Position numbers and translations under genes: made by a program. From the NCBI GenBank assembly GCA_009692555.1, contig SHYY01000023.1, forward strand, positions 1-45,114: DNA of 45,114 nt, given 5' to 3'. The notes beneath the pieces are model-generated. The model saw only the letters and a program-made list of their open reading frames with translations. It did not search any database and was not told the DNA's origin. Shown one piece after another: positions 1 to 45,114 of the stretch (positions within the stretch are counted from its first letter, which is position 1; every line of letters begins with the position of its first letter). This stretch comes from Myxococcales bacterium (GTDB lineage Bacteria > Myxococcota_A > Polyangia > Palsa-1104 > SHYY01).

Positions 1-244
1 CCGCTTCGGAGCGCCGGATGGCGCCCGCTTCTACGGCATCGCCCGGGGCTCCGCGATGGAGTGCAAGGCGATCGTGGATGCCTTTGCGGTCCTGCAACTC
101 GCCTTGGAAGACACTCGGCGACACGCCATGGAGTTGCTGACCCGCATCGTGGAGATGCTCACGCCCATGTGCCGGAGAGCTGATCCCCCGCGCGCGAGTG
201 CCCCTGAATCGACTACGACTACGACTACGACTACGACTCCGTGA
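1..244 (+). CDS. four-helix bundle protein (S23/IVS family), 3' end
   Basis: Only the C-terminal 80 residues are in the window; the frame is open from base 2 to TGA at 242-244. The stretch FYGIARGSAMEC followed by an amphipathic helix (LQLALEDTRRHAMELLTRI) is typical of the four-helix bundle family named after proteins encoded in 23S rRNA intervening sequences, whose fold resembles Avd of diversity-generating retroelements. Their cellular role is poorly known. The protein ends in ES followed by nine Thr and Pro, encoded by a gactac hexamer repeat at 211-240, so repeat gain or loss changes the tail by two residues without a frameshift. A second, nearly identical 3' end lies inverted at the other edge of the window (44915-45114). 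No 23S rRNA sequence is present here, so this is a stand-alone copy. Confidence 0.8.
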   Translation, partial: RFGAPDGARFYGIARGSAMECKAIVDAFAVLQLALEDTRRHAMELLTRIVEMLTPMCRRADPPRASAPESTTTTTTTTTP

Positions 245-10573: not shown

Positions 10574-10627
10574 TTAGGAGCCTGTTGGGGCAAGGCGCCT
10601 ACTGCGGCAGCCGATCCCTTCGGCCAT
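10574..10627 (-). CDS. 17-codon ORF inside repeat element copy 1
   Basis: MAEGIGCRSRRLAPTGS is preceded by AAGGAGG, a near-perfect ribosome site, 11 nt from the ATG. The same ORF with the same stop position is kept in copy 2 (18057-18110). The stop TAA uses two bases outside the element. Whether it is translated is unknown; the conservation may reflect the age of the repeat rather than selection. Confidence 0.3.
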   Translation of the reverse strand: MAEGIGCRSRRLAPTGS

Positions 10628-10736
10628 GCTTCGTCGCTCCTCCTTAGGGATTGCAGAAAGCAGTCCGGCGTCGTCGCTCCTCGCCTGGCCTTGGTCTCGG
10701 CCGCCTCGCTACGGCGCCTTACCCCAACAGGCTCCT
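10576..10736. mobile_element. MITE-like repeat element, copy 1
   Basis: A 161 bp element whose ends are 24 bp inverted repeats with one mismatch (AGGAGCCTGTTGGGG followed by C or T and AAGGCGCC). Copy 2 at 18059-18217 is about 85% identical and in the same orientation. It encodes no transposase. Its right end overlaps the alaC gene: the last codons and the TAA stop of alaC (RSLLG, stop at 10719-10721) are part of the terminal repeat. No clear target-site duplication is visible. Confidence 0.88.
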
Positions 10737-11897
10737 GGCGATCGCGCGGCAGGCGGCCTCGATCCGGGGCACCTCCTCGACCAGACCGAAGCGGAGGTAG
10801 CCCTCGCCGCCCGGGCCGAAGGCGACACCCGGAGCGACGGCGACCCGCGCCTCCTCGAGCAGCTTGACCGCGAACGCGACCGAGCCGAGGGAGCGAAAGC
10901 GCTCGGGCAGCGGCGCCCAGACGAACATCGTCCCGAGCGGGGGATCGACCGGCCAGCCGGCGGCGGCGAGACCCCGGCAGAGCACGCCGGCGCGCTCGCG
11001 GTAGAGGTCGCGGATCGAGGCGGCGAAGGCGTCGCCGTGGTCGAGCGCGAAGGCGGCGCCGCGCTGGATCGGGCCGAAGATCCCGTAGTCCATGTAGCCC
11101 TTGATCCGTTTGAGCGCGCCAACCAGCTCGGCGTTGCCGACGCAGAAGCCGACCCGCCAACCCGGCATGTTGAAGCTCTTCGAGGTGGTGAAGAACTCGA
11201 CCACGTGCGAGCGCGCGCCGTCGACGGAGAGCGCGCTCGGGGTGCGGCCACCGTCGAAGAGCAGGTCGGCGTAGGCGAGATCGGAGACCAGCCACAGGTC
11301 GCGGCGGCGGGCCCACTGGACGATCCCCTCCATCGCCCGCTCGTCGATCGTCGCCGAGGTGGGGTTGTGCGGGAAGTTGACGATCGCGAGCTTGGCCTTC
11401 CTTGGCGCGGCGTGCCACGCGTCGTCGAGATCCTTCAGCGCGTCGCGCCCCGGTCCCGTCGGTACGGGCTGCCAGTGGCCGCCGGCGAAGAGGACGCCGA
11501 AGCGGTGGATCGGGTAGCAGGGATCGGGCGCGAGGACGACGTCGCCGGCGCCGATCACCGCGAGCAGGAGGTGGCCGAGGCCCTCCTTCGAGCCGATGGT
11601 CGCCACCGCCTCGGTCGCGGGATCGAGCTTCACGCCGTAGCGTCGATCGTACCAGCGAGTGATCGCGGAGCGCAGCTCGGGGAGCCCCGGCGACGGCTGG
11701 TAGCGGTGCAGGCTGGCGTCGAGGGCGCTCTGGCGGAGCACCTCGACCGCCTCGGGTGGCGAGGCGTGATCGGGGTTGCCGAGGCCGAAGTCGAAGACGT
11801 CCTCGCCCTGGGCGCGCAGGGCGGTCTTGCGCTCGTCGACGGCACCGAGGACGTAGGGAGGCAGATCGGCGAGGCGCGGGAAGTGGGAGATCGGCAT
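10719..11897 (-). CDS. alaC: alanine transaminase AlaC-type aminotransferase
   Basis: A 392-residue class I/II PLP-dependent aminotransferase. It follows AlaC of E. coli closely through DLPPYVLGAVDE, GNPDHASPP, ATIGSKEGLGHLLLAV, PDPCYPIHRFG, FPHNPTSATID, DLAYADLLFDG and FFTTSKSFNMPGWRVGF; in the last, Lys near residue 237 forms the Schiff base with PLP and Arg of GWR binds the phosphate. Expected reaction: pyruvate plus glutamate to alanine plus 2-oxoglutarate, in the cytoplasm. The C-terminal four residues and stop lie in a repeat element. LL-diaminopimelate aminotransferase is a related alternative, but the GSKEGLGH and TTSKS context favours AlaC. Confidence 0.9.
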   Translation of the reverse strand: MPISHFPRLADLPPYVLGAVDERKTALRAQGEDVFDFGLGNPDHASPPEAVEVLRQSALDASLHRYQPSPGLPELRSAITRWYDRRYGVKLDPATEAVATIGSKEGLGHLLLAVIGAGDVVLAPDPCYPIHRFGVLFAGGHWQPVPTGPGRDALKDLDDAWHAAPRKAKLAIVNFPHNPTSATIDERAMEGIVQWARRRDLWLVSDLAYADLLFDGGRTPSALSVDGARSHVVEFFTTSKSFNMPGWRVGFCVGNAELVGALKRIKGYMDYGIFGPIQRGAAFALDHGDAFAASIRDLYRERAGVLCRGLAAAGWPVDPPLGTMFVWAPLPERFRSLGSVAFAVKLLEEARVAVAPGVAFGPGGEGYLRFGLVEEVPRIEAACRAIARSLLG

Positions 11898-13789: not shown

Positions 13790-15937
13790 TCACCGCACCC
13801 AGAACGCTCCCGAGCCCTGGTTGTTCCCGCCCGCGTCGGCCACCGTCGAGTAGACGCCGCGGATGGTCGCGTCGCACTTCCAGGTGACCACGCAGTCGGC
13901 GCAGTAGTCGCCGTGGTAGTCGGGGGCGCTCGCCACGAGGCCGATCCACAGGCGCGGCCCGGTCCAGCAGCCGGCCCATCCCTGGTAGTTCAGGAACTTG
14001 GCTCGCGGCGAGACCATCCCGTTTGCGAGGTTCTTGCACTCCACCGCGGCGGCCGGCTGGTTCTGCAGGCCCGGCGTGGCGAACTTGCTGCGCGCGTCGG
14101 CGGTCAGGCCGCACTTGAAGTCCTGCGGCCACGCCGAGACGGCGGAGTCGGTGATCGCCATCGCGGGCTCGGAATAGCGGATGTCGGCCGCGTTGGCGAA
14201 CAGCGCGCGCGCGGCGATCTTGTAGGAGCCCGCGCTCAGCGTGCCGAGGACGGTGTCGGAGGCGACCGCGGCGTAGGCGTTCTTGTAGCCCTCGGCATCG
14301 GTGGTCAGGTACTCCACCTGGGTCCAGCCGCCACCGTCGGTGGTCATGTCGCAGTAGACGTCGCGCTGGGGCAGCGTGGTGTCCGGCTTGATCGCGTAGA
14401 TCCCGCTCCCGGTGGCGCCGGCGTAGCTGCGCGCGCCTGGCGGCGGCTTCAGGTAGTCGAGGCAGGAGCGCGCGATCGTGCCGTCGGACCAGTTGCGCGA
14501 CTTGCCGACCGCGACGATCGTCACCGGGACGGCGACCGCCTCGCGCACGAACACGCGGTGGGCGTAGACCTGCACGCCCCAGTTGGCCACCGGCATCATC
14601 CCCCACATCGTCGAGAGCGTGGAGAGCGCGGGGTCGCGCATCAGCATCTGCGCGTCCCAGGGCCCGAAGTCGCAGGCGGTGTTGGCCATGTCGCTCGGCG
14701 CCACCGACGTGCGACCGAGGAAGGAGAGGCCCGCCGCGCCCTGGAGCGAGCGCGCGAAGGGGGAGACCATCGGGGTCCAGCAGATGCGGAGCGGGCGCTG
14801 GCCGGCGCCCCCGTCGGAGTCGAGGAGGAGCGTCGGGAGGTAGTCGGACTGGTAGAGCATCGCCGAGCTGAAGTAGCCCTTGGTCTGCATGTTCAGCGGG
14901 TAGATCGCGCTGGCGCTCTTCTGGGCCATGGTGTCGGTGACCCGCACCATGAAGTGGCCACCGTCGACGAGACCGGCGAGGCTCCCGCCGAGGAGGTAGG
15001 ACTTGTCGGGGGCGATCGAGCCGAGGTCGCTCTTCAGCCAGTCGATGTTGTAGAGCGACTTTCCGCCGACGATGCAGGTGTCGCCGGGGAGGCACTGGAG
15101 GAGCTGGGTCCAGCCGCCGCCGTCGGTGGTCATGTCGCAGGTGACGGTCTGGGAGGTGTTCTGGCCGGGCGGTCGGATGGTGTAGTCGCCCGACTTGGTG
15201 GCGGGGACGCGCTTCTGGAGATCGGCGCACGAGGACGGGCTGGCGCAGGCGGCGGCGATGCAGAAGTCGGGCTTGCAATCCGCGTCCGCCTTGCACGCCT
15301 TGCCGAGCGCGCAGGGAGGGCACGAGCCGCCGCAGTCGAGGTCGCTCTCGTCGCCGTTCTTCACCTTGTCGTTGCACGCCGGGGCGGCGCACACGTTCTG
15401 GGTGCACACGCCGGTGAAGCAGTCGGCGGGCTTCTGGCAGCCCTTCATCACCGCGCACACCGGGCAGCCGCCGCCGCCGCAGTCGACGTCGGTCTCGGCG
15501 CCGTTCTTGATCAGGTCGTTGCACGTCGCCGCTGCGCACTGGAGGTTCGCGCACAGGGCGCTGGCGCAGTCGCCGTTCTTCGCGCACCCCTTGCCGGGGC
15601 CGCACGCCGGGCAGGCGCCGCCGCAGTCGACGTCGGTCTCGTCGCCGTTCTTCTTGGTGTCGACGCACGACGGAAGGGGGGTGAGGTCGGGCGGCGGAGT
15701 GAGGTCGGGAGGCCGCGCGAGGTCGGGCGGCGGGGTGAGGTCGGGCAGCGCGAGATCGGGCGCGGCCAGATCGGGTGCGGCCAGATCGAACGACGTCGCG
15801 AGGTCGCCTGCGGCCACCAGATCGGGCGGGCGCGGGGTGGCCTGGTCGACGGGGTGCGCTGCATCGTTCGACGTCGGCGGCGTGGGATCGCACGCCGAGA
15901 GGCAGAGCGCGAGGAATACGAGGTTTCGGGCTTTCAT
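13790..15937 (-). CDS. lipoprotein with Cys-rich DVDCGG modules and two fibrinogen-like domains
   Basis: A 715-residue surface lipoprotein. Signal and lipobox are FLALCLSAC (Cys16). A Pro-Asp-Leu linker (repeats of DLAAP, DLTPPP) spans about residues 20-95. Three Cys-rich modules follow, each of the form [17 protein letters not shown]..CPxC..G.xC...DC.s..C....C. Then come two fibrinogen-related domains, each with CxDYLK- or CADLQK-type starts and YCDMTTDGGGWTQ. The fold is adhesin-like and outer-membrane exposure is inferred. The start ATG at 15937 has AGGAGG 5 nt upstream. A longer upstream frame is not supported. The protein at 41969-44791 shares the same modules. No neighbour points to a ligand. 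Confidence 0.88.
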   Translation of the reverse strand: MKARNLVFLALCLSACDPTPPTSNDAAHPVDQATPRPPDLVAAGDLATSFDLAAPDLAAPDLALPDLTPPPDLARPPDLTPPPDLTPLPSCVDTKKNGDETDVDCGGACPACGPGKGCAKNGDCASALCANLQCAAATCNDLIKNGAETDVDCGGGGCPVCAVMKGCQKPADCFTGVCTQNVCAAPACNDKVKNGDESDLDCGGSCPPCALGKACKADADCKPDFCIAAACASPSSCADLQKRVPATKSGDYTIRPPGQNTSQTVTCDMTTDGGGWTQLLQCLPGDTCIVGGKSLYNIDWLKSDLGSIAPDKSYLLGGSLAGLVDGGHFMVRVTDTMAQKSASAIYPLNMQTKGYFSSAMLYQSDYLPTLLLDSDGGAGQRPLRICWTPMVSPFARSLQGAAGLSFLGRTSVAPSDMANTACDFGPWDAQMLMRDPALSTLSTMWGMMPVANWGVQVYAHRVFVREAVAVPVTIVAVGKSRNWSDGTIARSCLDYLKPPPGARSYAGATGSGIYAIKPDTTLPQRDVYCDMTTDGGGWTQVEYLTTDAEGYKNAYAAVASDTVLGTLSAGSYKIAARALFANAADIRYSEPAMAITDSAVSAWPQDFKCGLTADARSKFATPGLQNQPAAAVECKNLANGMVSPRAKFLNYQGWAGCWTGPRLWIGLVASAPDYHGDYCADCVVTWKCDATIRGVYSTVADAGGNNQGSGAFWVR

Positions 15938-16699: not shown

Positions 16700-18055
16700 C
16701 TACGTGAGGTAGCGCAGGAGCAGGGTCGCGATCCCGAGGAAGGCGCCGTAGCCGATGCAGTCGGTGAAGGTTGTGAGCATCACCGTGCCGCCGAGGGCCG
16801 GGTCGCGCTTGATGGCCCGCAGGAAGAGGGGGATCGCGGCGCCCGAGAAGCCGGCGATCGACAGGTTGATCACCATCGCCAGGAACAGCACCAGGCCGAT
16901 CATCGGCTGGCCGGTCCAGAGGGACGCCACGGCAGCGGTGACGAGGCCGGTGCAGGCGCCGATGCCGAGCGAGACCGCCAGCTCCTTCGCGATCGTGCGG
17001 AGCCCGGAGATGAGCTCCATCTCGCCGAGCGCGACGCCGCGGGTGACGACGGTGAGCGCCTGCATCCCGCAGTTCCCGCCCATGCCGGCGACAATCGGCA
17101 TGAAGGTCGCGAGCGCCACCACCTGCGCGATCGAGGCCGAGAAGAGCCCCACCACCCACGCGGCGAGGAAGGCGGTGAAGAGGTTCAGGACCATCCACGG
17201 CAGCCGCTTGCGGAACGAGGTGAGGATCGGGCTGAAGATACGGTCGTCCTCGGAGAGGCCGGCGAGCCCGTAGAGGGCCTGGGTGGCCTGCTCCTGGATC
17301 ACGTCGATGATGTCGTCGACGGTGATGATGCCGAGGAGGCGACGATCCTCGTCGACCACCGGCACCGCGAGCAGGTTGTAGCGCGCCACCAGTCGCGCCG
17401 CCTCCTCGGCGGTGGAGGAGGCCAGCACCGCCAGCGGATCGGCCATCGCCAGCTCGCCGACGGGGCGATCCGGGCGCGCCGCGACCAGCCGCCGCACCGC
17501 CACCACGCCGCCCAGGCGCCCGTCGGTGTCGACCACGTAGAGGTAGTAGATCGAGTCGGCCTCCTCGGCGTCGCGCGCCCGCAGGCGATCGATCGCCTCC
17601 TGCGCGGTGGCCGACGCCGGGAGGGCGAAGACGCGCGTGTTCATCACGCTCCCGGCGGTGCCAGCCGGGTAGCGGAGGATGCGCTCGATGTCGCCGCGCG
17701 CCCGCGGGTCGAGCGCGCCCAGGAGGCGCTCGCGGCGCTCCTCGGGGAGCCGCTCGACGAACCACGCCGCGTCGTCGGTGGCGAGCTTCGCGACCAGCCC
17801 GGTCAGCCGCTCGTCGTCGACCAGGGCGAGCACCTCACCGAGGCGCTCCTCCGGCAGCTCCTTCATCACCGATCCGGCGCGCCCCGCGGCGAACAGGAGG
17901 TCGAGCATCGGGCGTCGTTCGGCCGGCGCCACCCGATCGAGCACATCCGCCGCGTCGGCGGAGCGCAGCTTGCCGAGCACCTTCTCGGCGCGCTGCTTCG
18001 CTCCCGAACGCAGCAGCCGACGGAGGATGTCGGCGTAGACCTGCGCGCGGGGCAT
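16700..18055 (-). CDS. mgtE: magnesium transporter MgtE
   Basis: A 451-residue Mg2+ channel. An N-terminal helical superhelix (residues about 1-125) carries MgtE_N features such as ELPEERLGEVLALVDDERL; a CBS pair follows (GTAGSVMNTRVFALP, ITVDDIIDVI) and then five membrane segments from about residue 275, including the signature VAGMGGNCGMQALTVVTRG in the pore region. Mg2+ uptake in the cell membrane is gated by Mg2+ binding to the N and CBS domains. The start codon is 1 nt after the stop of a 17-codon ORF in the repeat at 18059-18217, so its translation may depend on that element. No separate ribosome site lies in the remaining 3 nt. Confidence 0.95.
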   Translation of the reverse strand: MPRAQVYADILRRLLRSGAKQRAEKVLGKLRSADAADVLDRVAPAERRPMLDLLFAAGRAGSVMKELPEERLGEVLALVDDERLTGLVAKLATDDAAWFVERLPEERRERLLGALDPRARGDIERILRYPAGTAGSVMNTRVFALPASATAQEAIDRLRARDAEEADSIYYLYVVDTDGRLGGVVAVRRLVAARPDRPVGELAMADPLAVLASSTAEEAARLVARYNLLAVPVVDEDRRLLGIITVDDIIDVIQEQATQALYGLAGLSEDDRIFSPILTSFRKRLPWMVLNLFTAFLAAWVVGLFSASIAQVVALATFMPIVAGMGGNCGMQALTVVTRGVALGEMELISGLRTIAKELAVSLGIGACTGLVTAAVASLWTGQPMIGLVLFLAMVINLSIAGFSGAAIPLFLRAIKRDPALGGTVMLTTFTDCIGYGAFLGIATLLLRYLT

Positions 18056-18056
18056 T

Positions 18057-18110
18057 TCAGGAGCCTGCTGGGGTGGTGGGCCTACTGCGGCAGCCGATCC
18101 CTTCAGCCAT
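18057..18110 (-). CDS. 17-codon ORF inside repeat element copy 2, just before mgtE
   Basis: MAEGIGCRSRPTTPAGS starts after GGAGGAG (spacing about 9 nt) and stops with TGA, one base before the mgtE start codon (TGAAATG). This arrangement suits translational coupling of mgtE to the small ORF. The ORF is shared with copy 1 (10574-10627), with the first ten residues identical. Expression is not known. Confidence 0.35.
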   Translation of the reverse strand: MAEGIGCRSRPTTPAGS

Positions 18111-18217
18111 GCTTCGTCACTCCTCCGCGAATTGCAGACAGCAGTCCGTCGTCGTCGTTTCTCGCCTGGCCTCGGTCTCGGCTGCCTCGCTACGGCGCCT
18201 CACCCCAACAGGCTCCT
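18059..18217. mobile_element. MITE-like repeat element, copy 2
   Basis: A 159 bp element related to 10576-10736 (about 85% identity), with terminal inverted repeats beginning AGGAGCCTG. It fills the gap between the membrane protein gene (stop 18221) and mgtE (start 18055) almost exactly: 3 nt remain on the left and 3 nt on the right. Both genes read in the same direction across it, so it probably forms part of a shared transcript. Confidence 0.88.
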
Positions 18218-18220
18218 GGC

Positions 18221-19303
18221 CTACTTCACCATCTTCTTGGGTTCGGCCTTGAAGCTCTTGACGATCGCCGCGAGGATCCAGCCGCCGATACCGCCGATCG
18301 ACGCCGACGCCGCCAGGTAGGCCACCGCGGGCCCCACGAGATGGTTCGGGGTCGCCTCCTTCGGGAACAGCCACGCGAACACCAGGGTGATCCCGGCGCA
18401 CACCGTGAAGTGCGTCTTCACCTTCGGCGCGGCGAGGCGGTAGTCGAGGAACAGACCGATCAGCAGACAGAGCGCCGCGAGACCGAGGAAGATCCGCGGA
18501 TCGGGCCCGGCCGATCGGAAGGTCAAGAAGAGCCCCTCCTCGAGCGCGTCGTCGATTCCGTCGGCGGTCACCTTCACCGGCGTTCCCTGGATCGTGAGGC
18601 GGTGCCAGGCGTCGGTGTGCTCCTGCTTCTGGATGCTCGTCCCGCTGCCGCGGCGGCTGGTCCGCTGGGGGACCAGCTTGCGCTCGAGGGTGCCCTCGAT
18701 GTCCTCCTTGCTGCCCGCCGCACCCTCGATCTCGAGGTGGTAGTTCGACGACGCGTCGCCCTGCCCGCGCAGCCCGCCTGCGACCTCGATCTCGTAGGGA
18801 TCACTGTTCTCGGGCAGCGTGGCGGTCGCGACCAGCTTCGACTCGGCGCAGTCGCGCTTCTCGATCGGGTCCTTCCAGCTGGCGCAGTAGGCGATCCGGA
18901 CCGGATCGGCGAGCGCCCTGGCCGGCAGGGCCCTCCGCACCGACGGGTAGCCCGCGCCGATCGCCCACACCGCGGCGAACAGGCCGAGCAGGAGCTTGCT
19001 CTGCCGCTTCTCGAGCATTTCGAACACCGGCATCGCGGCGGCTGCGATGGCGCCACCGATGATCCCGGCGACGCACAGCAGCCCGGCGGTGCCCTCGGGG
19101 ACCCACCCCTGGGTGTAGGACACGTAGGCGACGACGATCAGCACGAGGCCGGCGACCGATTTCATCCAGCCGTGCCAGGCCTCCTCGAGCGTGGTCCGGA
19201 AGGTGGTCGGGATCTCCGGCCGCTCCTTCGCCGTCCCCGCGTCGTCGGAGCCTTCGCTGGTGATCCGCTTGTCCTGCCTCGCCTGCTTCGGTCCCCGGGC
19301 CAT
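18221..19303 (-). CDS. hypothetical membrane protein
   Basis: A 360-residue protein not assigned to a family. After a charged N-terminal 45 residues come three membrane segments (about 48-64, 71-95 and 103-120: GLVLIVVAYVSY, LLCVAGIIGGAIAAAA and LLLGLFAAVWAIGAGY). A soluble domain (about 125-290) follows with two Cys, YCASWKDPIEKRDCAE, and HLEIEGAAGSKEDIEG. Three more segments (about 292-310, 318-335, 340-355) end it. The middle domain is probably outside the cell. It lies upstream of mgtE on the same strand, with only the 159 bp repeat between them, so joint transcription is likely. Confidence 0.75.
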   Translation of the reverse strand: MARGPKQARQDKRITSEGSDDAGTAKERPEIPTTFRTTLEEAWHGWMKSVAGLVLIVVAYVSYTQGWVPEGTAGLLCVAGIIGGAIAAAAMPVFEMLEKRQSKLLLGLFAAVWAIGAGYPSVRRALPARALADPVRIAYCASWKDPIEKRDCAESKLVATATLPENSDPYEIEVAGGLRGQGDASSNYHLEIEGAAGSKEDIEGTLERKLVPQRTSRRGSGTSIQKQEHTDAWHRLTIQGTPVKVTADGIDDALEEGLFLTFRSAGPDPRIFLGLAALCLLIGLFLDYRLAAPKVKTHFTVCAGITLVFAWLFPKEATPNHLVGPAVAYLAASASIGGIGGWILAAIVKSFKAEPKKMVK

Positions 19304-41140: not shown

Positions 41141-41985
41141 GCAGCCCGCAGCAAGCCGTCCTCTTCGATCTCGATGGCACGCTGGTCGACACCCTCGACG
41201 ACCTCACCGACGCTGCCAATCACGTCCTTCGCACCCTCTCCCAACGATCCTCTCGGCCTTCGGCCTCCCCATCCTTCGGTGGGGCCCCAGCATCTCGGCC
41301 TTCGGCCTCCCCATCCTTCGGTGGGGCCCCAGCATCTCGGCCTTCGGCCTCCCCATCCTTCGGTGGGGCCCCCGCACGCACCCGCGACGAGGTGCGATCG
41401 TTCATCGGCGACGGCGTACGCAACCTCGTCACGCGCGTCCTCGGGCCTCCCGGTCCTTCCGACCCGGCGCTGCTCGATCGCGCGGTCGCCGAATTCCGCC
41501 GCCACTACGGCGCCCACCTGTTCGACCGAACCGCGCCCTACCCCGGGATCGTCGCGCTCCTCGACGGGCTGGCCACCCGCAACATCCCCGTCGCCGTCCT
41601 GAGCAACAAGATGGACCAGGCCACCCGCGCGATCGTGGACCGCTTCTTCCCCGGCCGCTTCGCCGCGGTCGTCGGCGAGCGCGACGGCGTCCCGCGCAAG
41701 CCCGATCCCACCGCCGCGCTCGCGCTGGCCGCCCGCCTCGGCGTCCCCCCCGCGCGCTGCTTTCTCGTCGGGGATGGCGCGGCGGACATGGAGGCGGCGG
41801 TGCGCGCCGGGATGATGCCGATCGGGGTGACCTGGGGGTTCCGGGGGGCCGAGGAGCTCCGCGAGCACGGCGCCAGCGCGATCATCGATCGCCCGGACGA
41901 CGTGCTCGGGATCCTCGACGCGAGCGCTGTTGCGCTCCAAGCTTGCTGCACGTCGGCTATTGCCGACGCTACTTCATCTGATTGA
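41137..41985 (+). CDS. gph: HAD hydrolase, phosphoglycolate phosphatase-like
   Basis: A 282-residue HAD phosphatase. [13 protein letters not shown] is motif I with the nucleophile Asp and the acid/base Asp, AVLSNK is motif [11 protein letters not shown] motif III and [16 protein letters not shown] motif IV. The closest match is phosphoglycolate phosphatase (2-phosphoglycolate to glycolate). Residues 39-80 carry three in-frame copies of a 14-residue repeat ([14 protein letters not shown]) inside the cap domain. The start GTG overlaps the fdhA stop by four bases, so it is cotranscribed with the formate dehydrogenase. The C-terminal 15 residues ([17 protein letters not shown]) look like read-through of non-coding DNA. 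It overlaps the convergent lipoprotein gene by 17 bp. Confidence 0.85.
41251..41376. repeat. 42-bp minisatellite, three units, inside the HAD gene
   Basis: Three units of 42 bp, each with GGCCTTCGGCC and a CCCCA...TGGGG inverted repeat, are nearly identical (the last has CCCC-G instead of CCCA-G near its end). The unit is a multiple of three, so copy-number changes keep the frame. It encodes 14 residues per unit. Confidence 0.92.
41951..41968. terminator. hairpin at convergent gene ends
   Basis: CGTCGGC and GCCGACG form a 7 bp stem with a TATT loop between the end of the HAD gene and the end of the lipoprotein gene. The last base pairs with the base next to the lipoprotein stop (41969-41971). 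It may end transcription in both directions; there is no U tract. Confidence 0.4.
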
Positions 41986-44791
41986 GCAGCACGCCGACGC
42001 TGTTGGTGGAATTGTTGACCACCACCACGTCGGGCTTGTTGTCGCCGTTCAGATCCCCCGTCGCGACGTGGTAGGGGATCTGCGCCACCGGGTAGCTCGC
42101 GAGCTGGTACTGATCACTGCCGAGGTTGAGCAGGAAGCTCACCGTGGCGGCGTTGTAGTTCGGGACCACGATGTCGAGCTTCCCGTCGCTGTTGAAGTCC
42201 GCGGCGGCGATCGAGTAGGGGTTCGCGCCGACCGGGATCGACTTGGCCGCCAGCAGCGCCCCATTGCCCGAGTTGATGAACAGGCTGACCGTGCTGGCCA
42301 CGTAATTGGCGACCGCGACATCCGCCTTCATGTCCCCGTTGAAGTCGCCCACCACCACCCCGATCGGATTCGCGCCCGTCGCTTTGTTGGCCGGCGCCGC
42401 GAAGGTCCCCATCGCCGTCCCGAGGAGCACGCTGACCGTGTTCGCCGAGTAGTTGGCGCTGACGATATCGAGCTTGCCATCGCCGTTGAGATCGCCCACG
42501 GCGACTGCCAGCGCGCGGGAACCGGCGGCGAAGTTGGCGACCGGCTGGAAGCTGGCCGCGCCCTTGCCGGCGAGGAAGCTGACCGACCCGCCCGCGAGGT
42601 ACGTGCCGACCACGACATCCGGCTTGGCATCGGCGTTCCAGTCGGCGATCACCAGCGACCACGGCGTCGATCCGCACGGGAAGAACGCCTGCGCCGCGAA
42701 GGCCGCGTTGCCCTTGTTGAGGAGCAGGCTGATGTTGGCGCCGCCGTAGTTCGCGGTGACGATATCGGGCTGCTTGTCGCCGTCGAAATCACCGATCGCC
42801 ACCGCCTTCGCCTGGGTGCCGGCCGGGTAGCTGATCGCCGCGTTGAACGTCCCCAGGCTCTTGTTGGTCAGGACGCTGACGTTGTTGCTCGAGTGGTTCG
42901 CCGTCACGAGGTCCGGCTTCATGTCGGCGTTCAGATCGCCGATCGCCACCCAGCGCGGCGACGTGCCCACCGGGTAGGTCACCATGTTCGCGAAGATGAA
43001 GGCGCACTTGTTCTCGCCGCACAGCCCGGTCGCACAGTCGTTGTTGAGCACGCAGGTCTTGTCGGTGCCGATGCAGCGCGCGCAGCTCGCGCCGCCGCAG
43101 TCGATGTCGCTCTCGGTCCCGTTCTTCACCTTGTCGGCGCAGCCCGGCACCGCGCACTTGAGGGCCGTGCACACCAGGCTCTGGCAGTCCTTCGGCAAGG
43201 CGCAGCCCTTGTTGTTGGCGCACGGCCCGCAGTTCGCGCCGCCGCAGTCGATATCGGTCTCGAGGTTGTTCTTCACCCCGTCCATGCACGTCGCCTGGGT
43301 GCACTTCGCGCCGCCGCAGAGGATGCTCTGGCAGTCCTTCGCCACGATGCAGGTCTTCCCGGCGGGGCACGGCTGGCAGGTCGCGCCGCCGCAGTCGACG
43401 TCGGTCTCGGTGCCGTTCTTGATCTGATCGCCGCAGCCCGCCGGCATGCACTTGCCGGCCTGGCAGAGCCCGCTGGTGCAATCGCCGGACATGTTGCAGC
43501 CCTTGGCATTGGCGCACTTCGGGCAGTTCCCGCCGCAGTCGATATCGCTCTCCATGCCGTTCTTGACGAGGTCGATGCACGACGCGGTGGTGCACACCAG
43601 GGCCTTGCAGAGGCCGCTCTGGCAGTCCACCGCCGCCACGCACTTCTTCCCCGGCCCGCAGGCGGCGCACGATCCGCCGCAGTCGACGTCGGTCTCGGTG
43701 CCGTTCTTCAGCACGTCCATGCAGCTCGGCCCAGCGCACAGTCCGGCGAGGCAGATCCCGGTCAGGCAGTCACCGGCGCCCTTGCACGCCTGGGCGATGC
43801 TGCACTTGCCGCACATCGCACCGCCGCAATCGACATCGGTCTCGGCGCCGTTCTTCACCGCGTCAACGCACGTCGGGGCCACGCACTTGTTGGCGACGCA
43901 GACGCCGCTCGCGCAATCCGGGCCGAGGTCGCACACCTTGCCGGCGGCGCACGGCAGGCAGTCCATGCCGCCGCAATCGACGTCGGTCTCGCTGCCGTTC
44001 TTCAGCACGTCCATGCAGTTCGGGATCGCGCAGACGGCGTTGGTGCAGATCGCGCTCTGGCAATCGGCCGGCTTCCCGCAGGCCTTGCCGCCCGCGCAGG
44101 GCGGACAGCTCCCGCCGCAGTCGACATCCGTCTCGGCGCCGTTCTTCATGGCGTCAGCGCAGCCCGGCGCCGCGCACTGGCCGCCCTGGCAGGAGACGCT
44201 CACGCAGTCCTTGGCGATCGCGCAGTTCTTCCCGTTGGCGCACGCCGGGCAGTTGCCGCCGCAGTCGACATCCGTCTCGGTGCCGTTCTTCACCTGGTCC
44301 ACGCAGCCCGGCCCGGCGCAGAGCGCGTTCATGCATACGCCGTCCTGGCAATCGGCCGGCTTCCCGCACCCCTTCCCCACCGGGCACGGCGCGCACGACC
44401 CGCCGCAGTCGATGTCGCTCTCGCTCCCATTCTTCTTGCCGTCGCCGCACGAGGGCGCCAGGTCGGGCGGCTCGACGAGATCGGGTCCCTCGATGAGATC
44501 GGCCACGTCGGCGAGATCGGGCACGTCCGCGAGATCGGCCGAGCCCGCCGAATCCACGACCGAGAGATCGGCCCCGGCGAGGTCCTCCGAGGTCGCGGCA
44601 TCGTCCGCCGCCTTGCCGTCGAGCCCGGCGAGATCGGGCGGGGCCAACGCGCCATCGCCGGGCTTGGCCCCGTCGCTCTTCGCGATCGTCAGATCCTCCG
44701 TCCCGCCGGGCGGCGAATCACCGCCCCCACAACCCGCGAACGACACCACCAGCAACGAGGAGAGGAGAGAGGTCGCAAGCCTGCCACGCAT
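41969..44791 (-). CDS. lipoprotein with ten Cys-rich DVDCGG modules and a seven-repeat FG-GAP propeller
   Basis: A 940-residue lipoprotein. LLVVSFAGC (Cys near 20) is the lipobox; a long acidic linker with DLxxP-type repeats (about 35-110) follows. Ten Cys-rich modules of the form [17 protein letters not shown]..C..C....C....DC.s..C....C follow (about 110-585). The last 340 residues are seven FG-GAP/VCBS blades ([45 protein letters not shown] and others) with Asp-rich calcium loops, so the fold is a complete seven-bladed propeller. ATG at 44791 has GGAGG 7 nt upstream. The protein shares module type with 13790-15937. It is probably surface-exposed and may bind a ligand or a partner cell. Confidence 0.9.
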
Positions 44792-44881: not shown

Positions 44882-45114
44882 TGGGGTGCTTAACGGAGAA
44901 GGGGGTCCCTCCGCTCACGTAGTCGTAGTCGTAGTCGATTCAGGGGCACTCTCGCGCGGGGGATGACCTCTCCGGCACAAGCGCGTGAGCATCTCCAGGA
45001 TGCGGGTCAGCAACTCCATGGCCTGTCGCCGAGTGTCTTCCAAGGCGAGTTGCAGGACCGCAAAGGCATCCACGATCGCCTTGCACTCCATCGCGGAGCC
45101 CCGGGCGATGCTGT
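44882..45114. repeat. right copy of the long inverted repeat (matches 33-277)
   Basis: The reverse complement of 33-277, with fewer hexamers and a few base changes. The repeat continues beyond the window, so its full length is unknown. Confidence 0.9.
44915..45114 (-). CDS. four-helix bundle protein (S23/IVS family), 3' end
   Basis: A C-terminal fragment of 65 residues, in the frame that reads SIARGSAMECKAIVDAF, then LQLALEDTRRQAMELLTRILEML and ends ES plus six Thr. It matches the left-edge copy closely; substitutions include MCRRADPP versus LCRRGHPP and the shorter Thr tail (three gactac hexamers). The gene continues out of the window. Its orientation is opposite to that of the other copy, so both genes run inward to the centre of the window. 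Confidence 0.8.
   Translation of the reverse strand, partial: SIARGSAMECKAIVDAFAVLQLALEDTRRQAMELLTRILEMLTRLCRRGHPPRESAPESTTTTTT

Follow-up and report, generated by a model that had tools for sequence, protein, structure and literature searches.

A gene for an MgtE-type magnesium transporter (mgtE; 16700–18055, minus strand, 451 aa, start codon 18055–18053) lies on the 45,114-nt window analysed here, which is contig C145 of a 6.1-Mb, 80% complete genome (G000). Its product matches the Pfam MgtE_N, CBS and MgtE domains and the NCBIfam family TIGR00400 mgtE, the latter at 319.9 bits against a cut-off of 232.75. The start position is sound and is supported by profile and homologue evidence: position 9 of the TIGR00400 profile aligns to residue 11, the closest homologues begin at positions matching residue 1–2, and the open frame upstream of the ATG contains no ATG, GTG or TTG. 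The preceding co-directional gene (18221–19303, minus strand, 360 aa) has no Pfam match and ends in a TAG at 18223–18221, and the entire intergenic leader between the two genes is formed by one copy of a palindromic repeat element (copy 2; 18059–18217, minus strand and thus in the orientation of mgtE; 159 bp, borders AGGAGCC...GGCTCCT), located 3 nt after this TAG and with its other edge 3 nt from the mgtE start. Misassembly of this copy is unlikely, as it shares no exact match longer than 40 nt with the other copies of the genome. A reading made beforehand from the sequence only had placed a repeat directly before mgtE, which is confirmed here, as is the existence of a first copy of 161 bp (copy 1; 10576–10736, minus strand), beyond which the next gene starts after 62 nt. 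An aminotransferase gene (10719–11897) runs a few codons into copy 1 and ends at its TAA.

Read along the minus strand, the junction consists of a Shine-Dalgarno-like (SD) GGAGGAG (18126–18120), an ATG at 18110 opening a 17-codon ORF (18057–18110; peptide MAEGIGCRSRPTTPAGS), its TGA at 18059–18057, a single A at 18056 and the mgtE ATG, and the earlier observation that the small ORF stops one base before mgtE (TGA-A-ATG) is therefore correct. Upstream of this ORF the element contains a 28-codon GTG ORF (18117–18203, minus strand) with the AGGAG of the entry repeat as putative SD and a TGA 6 nt before the 17-codon ORF, such that mgtE is preceded by two successive SD-led frames. The related statement that mgtE has no separate ribosome site holds as far as a strong SD is concerned, but a weak AGG is present 8 nt 5′ of the ATG, within the terminal repeat, and is the sole SD-like candidate directly at the gene. 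Copy 2 has a predicted folding energy of −102.8 kcal/mol (z −8.6), and in the free leader the −20 to −1 region of mgtE is predicted to be mostly paired (unpaired probability 0.14); with the 17-codon ORF under translation this probability rises to 1.0, a value imposed by the model. A consensus scan detected neither a sigma-70-type promoter nor an intrinsic terminator at the junction, and leaderless transcription from the element edge thus has no support from that scan. An Rfam scan of the window returned no match to a riboswitch or any other known RNA.

Relatives offer a partial view of the mgtE locus. We compared G000 with a genome of the same genus (G001), in which mgtE had no match at 1e-30, and with one of the same family (G002), in which the orthologue is cut off by a contig end, leaving no empty mgtE junction readable in the family. 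Outside the family, at least 5 of the 14 listed homologous loci (L046, L047, L048, L106 and L107) have SD-like stretches of their own, as judged by eye, and the element is absent from the 18 nt before each possible start of these homologues. The 360-aa gene and mgtE were not adjacent in the other loci examined (9 and 7 loci, respectively, over the available flanks), so recombination between repeats is also a possible origin of their adjacency.

The element is present at 25 further sites in G000, giving 26 copies with lengths of 159, about 198, 237 or 276 bp. All 26 loci entered the counts below, together with 25 of 37 loci in G001 and 23 of 41 in G002, so that the figures for the latter two cover a subset of their element matches: 10 G001 and 7 G002 loci lacked a findable border pair, and 13 further loci were duplicates of one copy or cut by contig ends. 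Copies at contig ends (for example G001:C8:1-163 and G002:C48:1-120) are expected if the repeat breaks assembly. The terminal inverted repeats are conspicuous, with 534 of 600 positions forming Watson–Crick pairs across the 24-column arms of the 25 G000 copies (of 26) kept in register. Arms diverge among G000, G001 and G002 (AGGAGCCTGTTGGGG, AGGAGCCTGTTTCCG and AGACCGACCTCACG, respectively), each complementing its own partner arm, and the core is common to all three genomes. A search of 14 genomes at order level gave matches in these three only, and among 58 relatives four genomes matched, the fourth with only a weak 39-bp match. TA is present at both borders of 43 of the 74 copies (11/26 in G000, 14/25 in G001, 18/23 in G002) and at one border of a further 23 (9, 10 and 4, respectively). 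Copies are dispersed, and in G001 and G002 the mreBC junction is empty and the rlmN upstream region lacks the element, the empty-site comparisons for target duplication being drawn from diverged relatives. The element thus looks like a non-autonomous, TA-inserting, MITE-like palindrome. A lone arm on contig C317 of G001 is a remnant situated at a gene stop.

Two candidate movers were considered. The RAYT domain Y1_Tnp (PF01797) was not found in G000 or G001 and gave four weak matches in G002. The IS630-type domain DDE_3 (PF13358) was likewise absent from G000 (80% complete) and G001, and the four DDE_3 genes of G002, the only genome to have them, are without convincing element-like flanking ends.

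Several described repeat families share features with this element. Bacterial MITEs with TA termini, such as Correia/NEMIS, RUP and ERIC/RU-1, are of about 100–200 bp with terminal inverted repeats, occur in many intergenic copies, give single long stem-loop transcripts, lack an internal transposase and in some cases contain open frames (PMC2229807). The likeness is one of description, as the element here has long arms, no source transposase that we could find and no Rfam match, and it differs in being strongly placed at stop codons and, in G000, also at start codons. Pneumococcal BOX repeats similarly furnish upstream genes with a stop codon, in 36 cases, and contain ORFs co-transcribed with operons; however, those ORFs are without good SD candidates, and the accessible portion of the report describes no relay in which a stop lies next to a start (PMC3049150). 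REP/REPIN sequences and the GTAG/CGTC-tagged palindromes associated with RAYTs are also palindromic extragenic repeats, and the core of the element begins CGTAG in G000 and CGTCG in many G001 copies, which recalls these tags, but the element is much longer and is found in two genomes (G000 and G001) without Y1_Tnp.

Stop codons are a frequent location of the element. A TAG stop whose T immediately precedes the element and whose A and G are the first bases of the element terminates 45 of the 87 flanking gene ends across the 74 copies (9/25 gene 3′ ends in G000, 19/35 in G001 and 17/27 in G002). Counted per copy, placement in a stop codon (8/26, 16/25 and 15/23) exceeds the share of TA sites that lie in stop codons in G001 (binomial p ~6e-8) and G002 (p ~2e-9) and is not clearly above it in G000 (p 0.14). 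Even if no ribosomes pass to the next gene, such settling at stop codons across related genomes clearly exemplifies insertion bias or selection. In G000, 12 of the 26 copies also have a called start no more than 10 nt away, compared with about 5% of available TA sites, a comparison made post hoc on copies that are related; no such excess is seen in G001 (1/25) or G002 (3/23). Gene starts were called by a simple custom codon model whose GTG and TTG starts are uncertain, and those of mgtE, mreC and rlmN were verified against homologues. The start-abutting G000 copies are divided equally between the mgtE-like and the opposite orientation (6 and 6), and those in the opposite orientation lack the 17-codon ORF, indicating that this ORF is no general requirement for abutment.

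The 17-codon ORF is unconserved as a unit. Its in-frame ATG is present in 24 G000 and 11 G001 copies and in none of the 23 G002 copies, the GGAGG before it in 13 of 26, 23 of 25 and 21 of 23 copies, respectively, and its stop is formed by host bases at the border. Seven G000 copies are of unusual length, and only one of these lengths (201 bp) is a multiple of three, so the element does not preserve its frames as coding sequence would. Variability at codon position 3 is only a little above that at the others (14 of 17 columns, versus 9 and 10 for positions 1 and 2). As a probe for selection on RNA pairing, G-U to A-C wobble counts on the mgtE-like strand are 24:7 in G000, 28:10 in G001 and 4:3 in G002, and the G-U excess is just as large at sites with transcription of the other strand only (15:3), the columns in all these counts being inherited. 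An SD match of at least 4 nt precedes only 29 of the 71 called G000 genes, leaving 42 without, and since a missing SD is ordinary in this genome its lack at mgtE says little. It was accordingly not established that the 17-codon ORF is a signal which mgtE otherwise lacks.

A more general pattern is apparent in the frame in which translation would leave the element. Across the three genomes this exit frame (...TCC T or GTC T) stops between −8 and +4 nt from the downstream start in all 16 start-abutting cases, while each of the other two frames stops in that range once. In G000 an SD-led start (at least 4 nt) occurs in the exit frame of all 12 start-abutting strands and of 22 of the 40 others, and the combination of an SD-led start with a stop near a downstream start in 12/12 versus 8/40 (Fisher one-sided p <0.0001); among shuffled elements the mean number with an SD-led exit frame is 2.7 of 12. 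Within the short class only (158–161 bp) the combined feature remains distinct (7/7 versus 3/13, p 0.0015), and the SD-led start taken by itself does not reach significance (7/7 versus 9/13, p 0.15). All of these start-abutment and SD-frame tests are post hoc, and because copies are related by descent the 12 cases are not 12 independent events and reduce to about two consensus strands. The stop at the border is, in addition, largely explained by insertion at TA or in stop codons, in part stops that overlap the next start. A widened form of the original proposal, in which SD-led frames on either strand lead to the next gene, thus agrees with the G000 copies and fails in G002, where none of the three start-abutting copies has an SD-led exit frame.

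Two further junctions illustrate the arrangement. Between mreB and mreC of G000 (L193/L074, contig C268) the element has an AGGAG-ATG frame of 61 codons, in another frame, whose TAG directly precedes the mreC ATG. The site is empty in G001 and G002 (L194, L196), where mreB and mreC are separated by 25 nt with a purine-rich SD and by TAG-GCA-ATG, respectively. At rlmN (L006, G000 contig C79) a copy in the opposite orientation lies 1 base before the GTG start and contains an AGGAG-ATG frame of 47 codons ending TAGTG. The element is absent upstream of rlmN in the relatives (L233, L237); the preceding gene overlaps the rlmN start in G002, and rlmN lies behind a divergent gene in G001. The short or overlapping G002 junctions at mreC and rlmN were counted in favour of a hand-over of ribosomes at such sites.

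We posit as the most likely reading, with confidence just short of an even chance, that mgtE is translated partly by termination–reinitiation from the frames of the element. A MITE-like palindrome would have inserted at a TA-type site at the gene end, between the 360-aa gene and mgtE, and the two genes would share an mRNA on which ribosomes enter the AGGAG-GTG frame of 28 codons and next the GGAGGAG-ATG frame of 17 codons, unwinding the hairpin. After termination at the TGA 1 base before the AUG, a fraction of these ribosomes would reinitiate at mgtE. The hand-over would be a by-product of the mode of insertion that is tolerated, or favoured, where junctions are tight, rather than a form of magnesium sensing. 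Translational coupling of ordinary neighbouring genes, as treated in PMC12548453, similarly involves short stop/start spacing, which favours coupling, and is explained by reinitiation or unfolding models; under these rules termination 1 base before the AUG makes reinitiation plausible. The same text reports that coupling tends to be weaker where strong structure follows the stop of the upstream gene, which we count against reinitiation here. Unlike in ordinary coupling, the coupling ORF would come from a mobile element, and the case is recognised from its geometry (TGA-A-ATG). The suggestion of the sequence-only reading that the element supplies the translation signal of mgtE is thus retained in part: the element offers the best initiation signal nearby and its translation would open the covering arm, but the ORF is unconserved and starts without SD are usual.

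The main rival explanation is that ribosomes initiate on mgtE directly, with no strong SD, through the weak AGG or independently of SD, the mini-ORF being an accident of the repeat. We regard this as a serious minority possibility, consistent with the low proportion of SD-led genes in G000, the AGG itself, the three G002 copies that abut starts without an SD-led element frame and the complete absence of the mini-ORF ATG from G002. It has to contend with a start region that is predicted to be mostly paired, and it leaves the association of 12/12 versus 8/40 to chance and shared descent. Quite improbable, in our judgement, is the reading that the element lowers or silences mgtE, with the hairpin uncoupling it from the upstream gene and trapping its start while a second mgtE-type gene suffices. 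The great stability of the hairpin and the presence of a second mgtE homologue in G000 (contig C272) would fit this, but the mgtE reading frame is unbroken for all 451 codons and its residues 132–450 share 76% identity with the G002 orthologue, which suggests that the gene is kept, and rlmN and mreC have elements at the same place.

The sequence-only reading also raised a regulatory switch; taken as a leader or switch responsive to magnesium, on the model of the leader peptides that precede magnesium transporter genes in enterobacteria, this role of the element appears highly improbable. It draws on a resemblance to mgtQ of the Salmonella mgtCB operon, an intergenic small ORF whose translation frees the start of the magnesium transporter gene mgtB from a stem-loop (PMC8092293). 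However, mgtQ has 8 codons, is specific to mgtB and depends on acidic codons (same source), whereas the ORF here is unconserved and belongs to a dispersed repeat, and homologues have no such element in their 18-nt upstream stretches. Neither the window-wide Rfam scan nor copy 2 itself, in which we found no mgtE-specific feature, favours a switch, and the same repeat stands at the other genome sites, mreC and rlmN among them. Returning to reinitiation, its extension to the whole family, namely a 'translation-relay' mobile element with SD-led frames in both orientations that would take ribosomes in at the AGGAG of the entry repeat and let them out at the next start, and could enter coupled operon junctions (mgtE, mreC, rlmN) with coupling unbroken, is in our view unlikely.

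If the hand-over is true, small mobile repeats could persist within operons while leaving translation uninterrupted, and they would rewire how important genes, mreC among them, are translated. In the open-licence literature searched, from which most subscription papers are absent, we found no description of a mobile repeat that hands ribosomes on to the next gene. With one element in both orientations, at many junctions and with empty sites in relatives, the system provides a direct test bed.

The window contains further repeats. Three tandem 42-nt GC-rich hairpin repeats occupy positions 41251–41376, and a similar stretch was noted by eye in the loop of one element copy (L014). Arrays of a repeat of about 147 nt lie within large predicted genes at 15290–15672 and 43073–44454, and the two ends of the window (33–229 and 44918–45114) form an inverted-repeat pair with 96% similarity.
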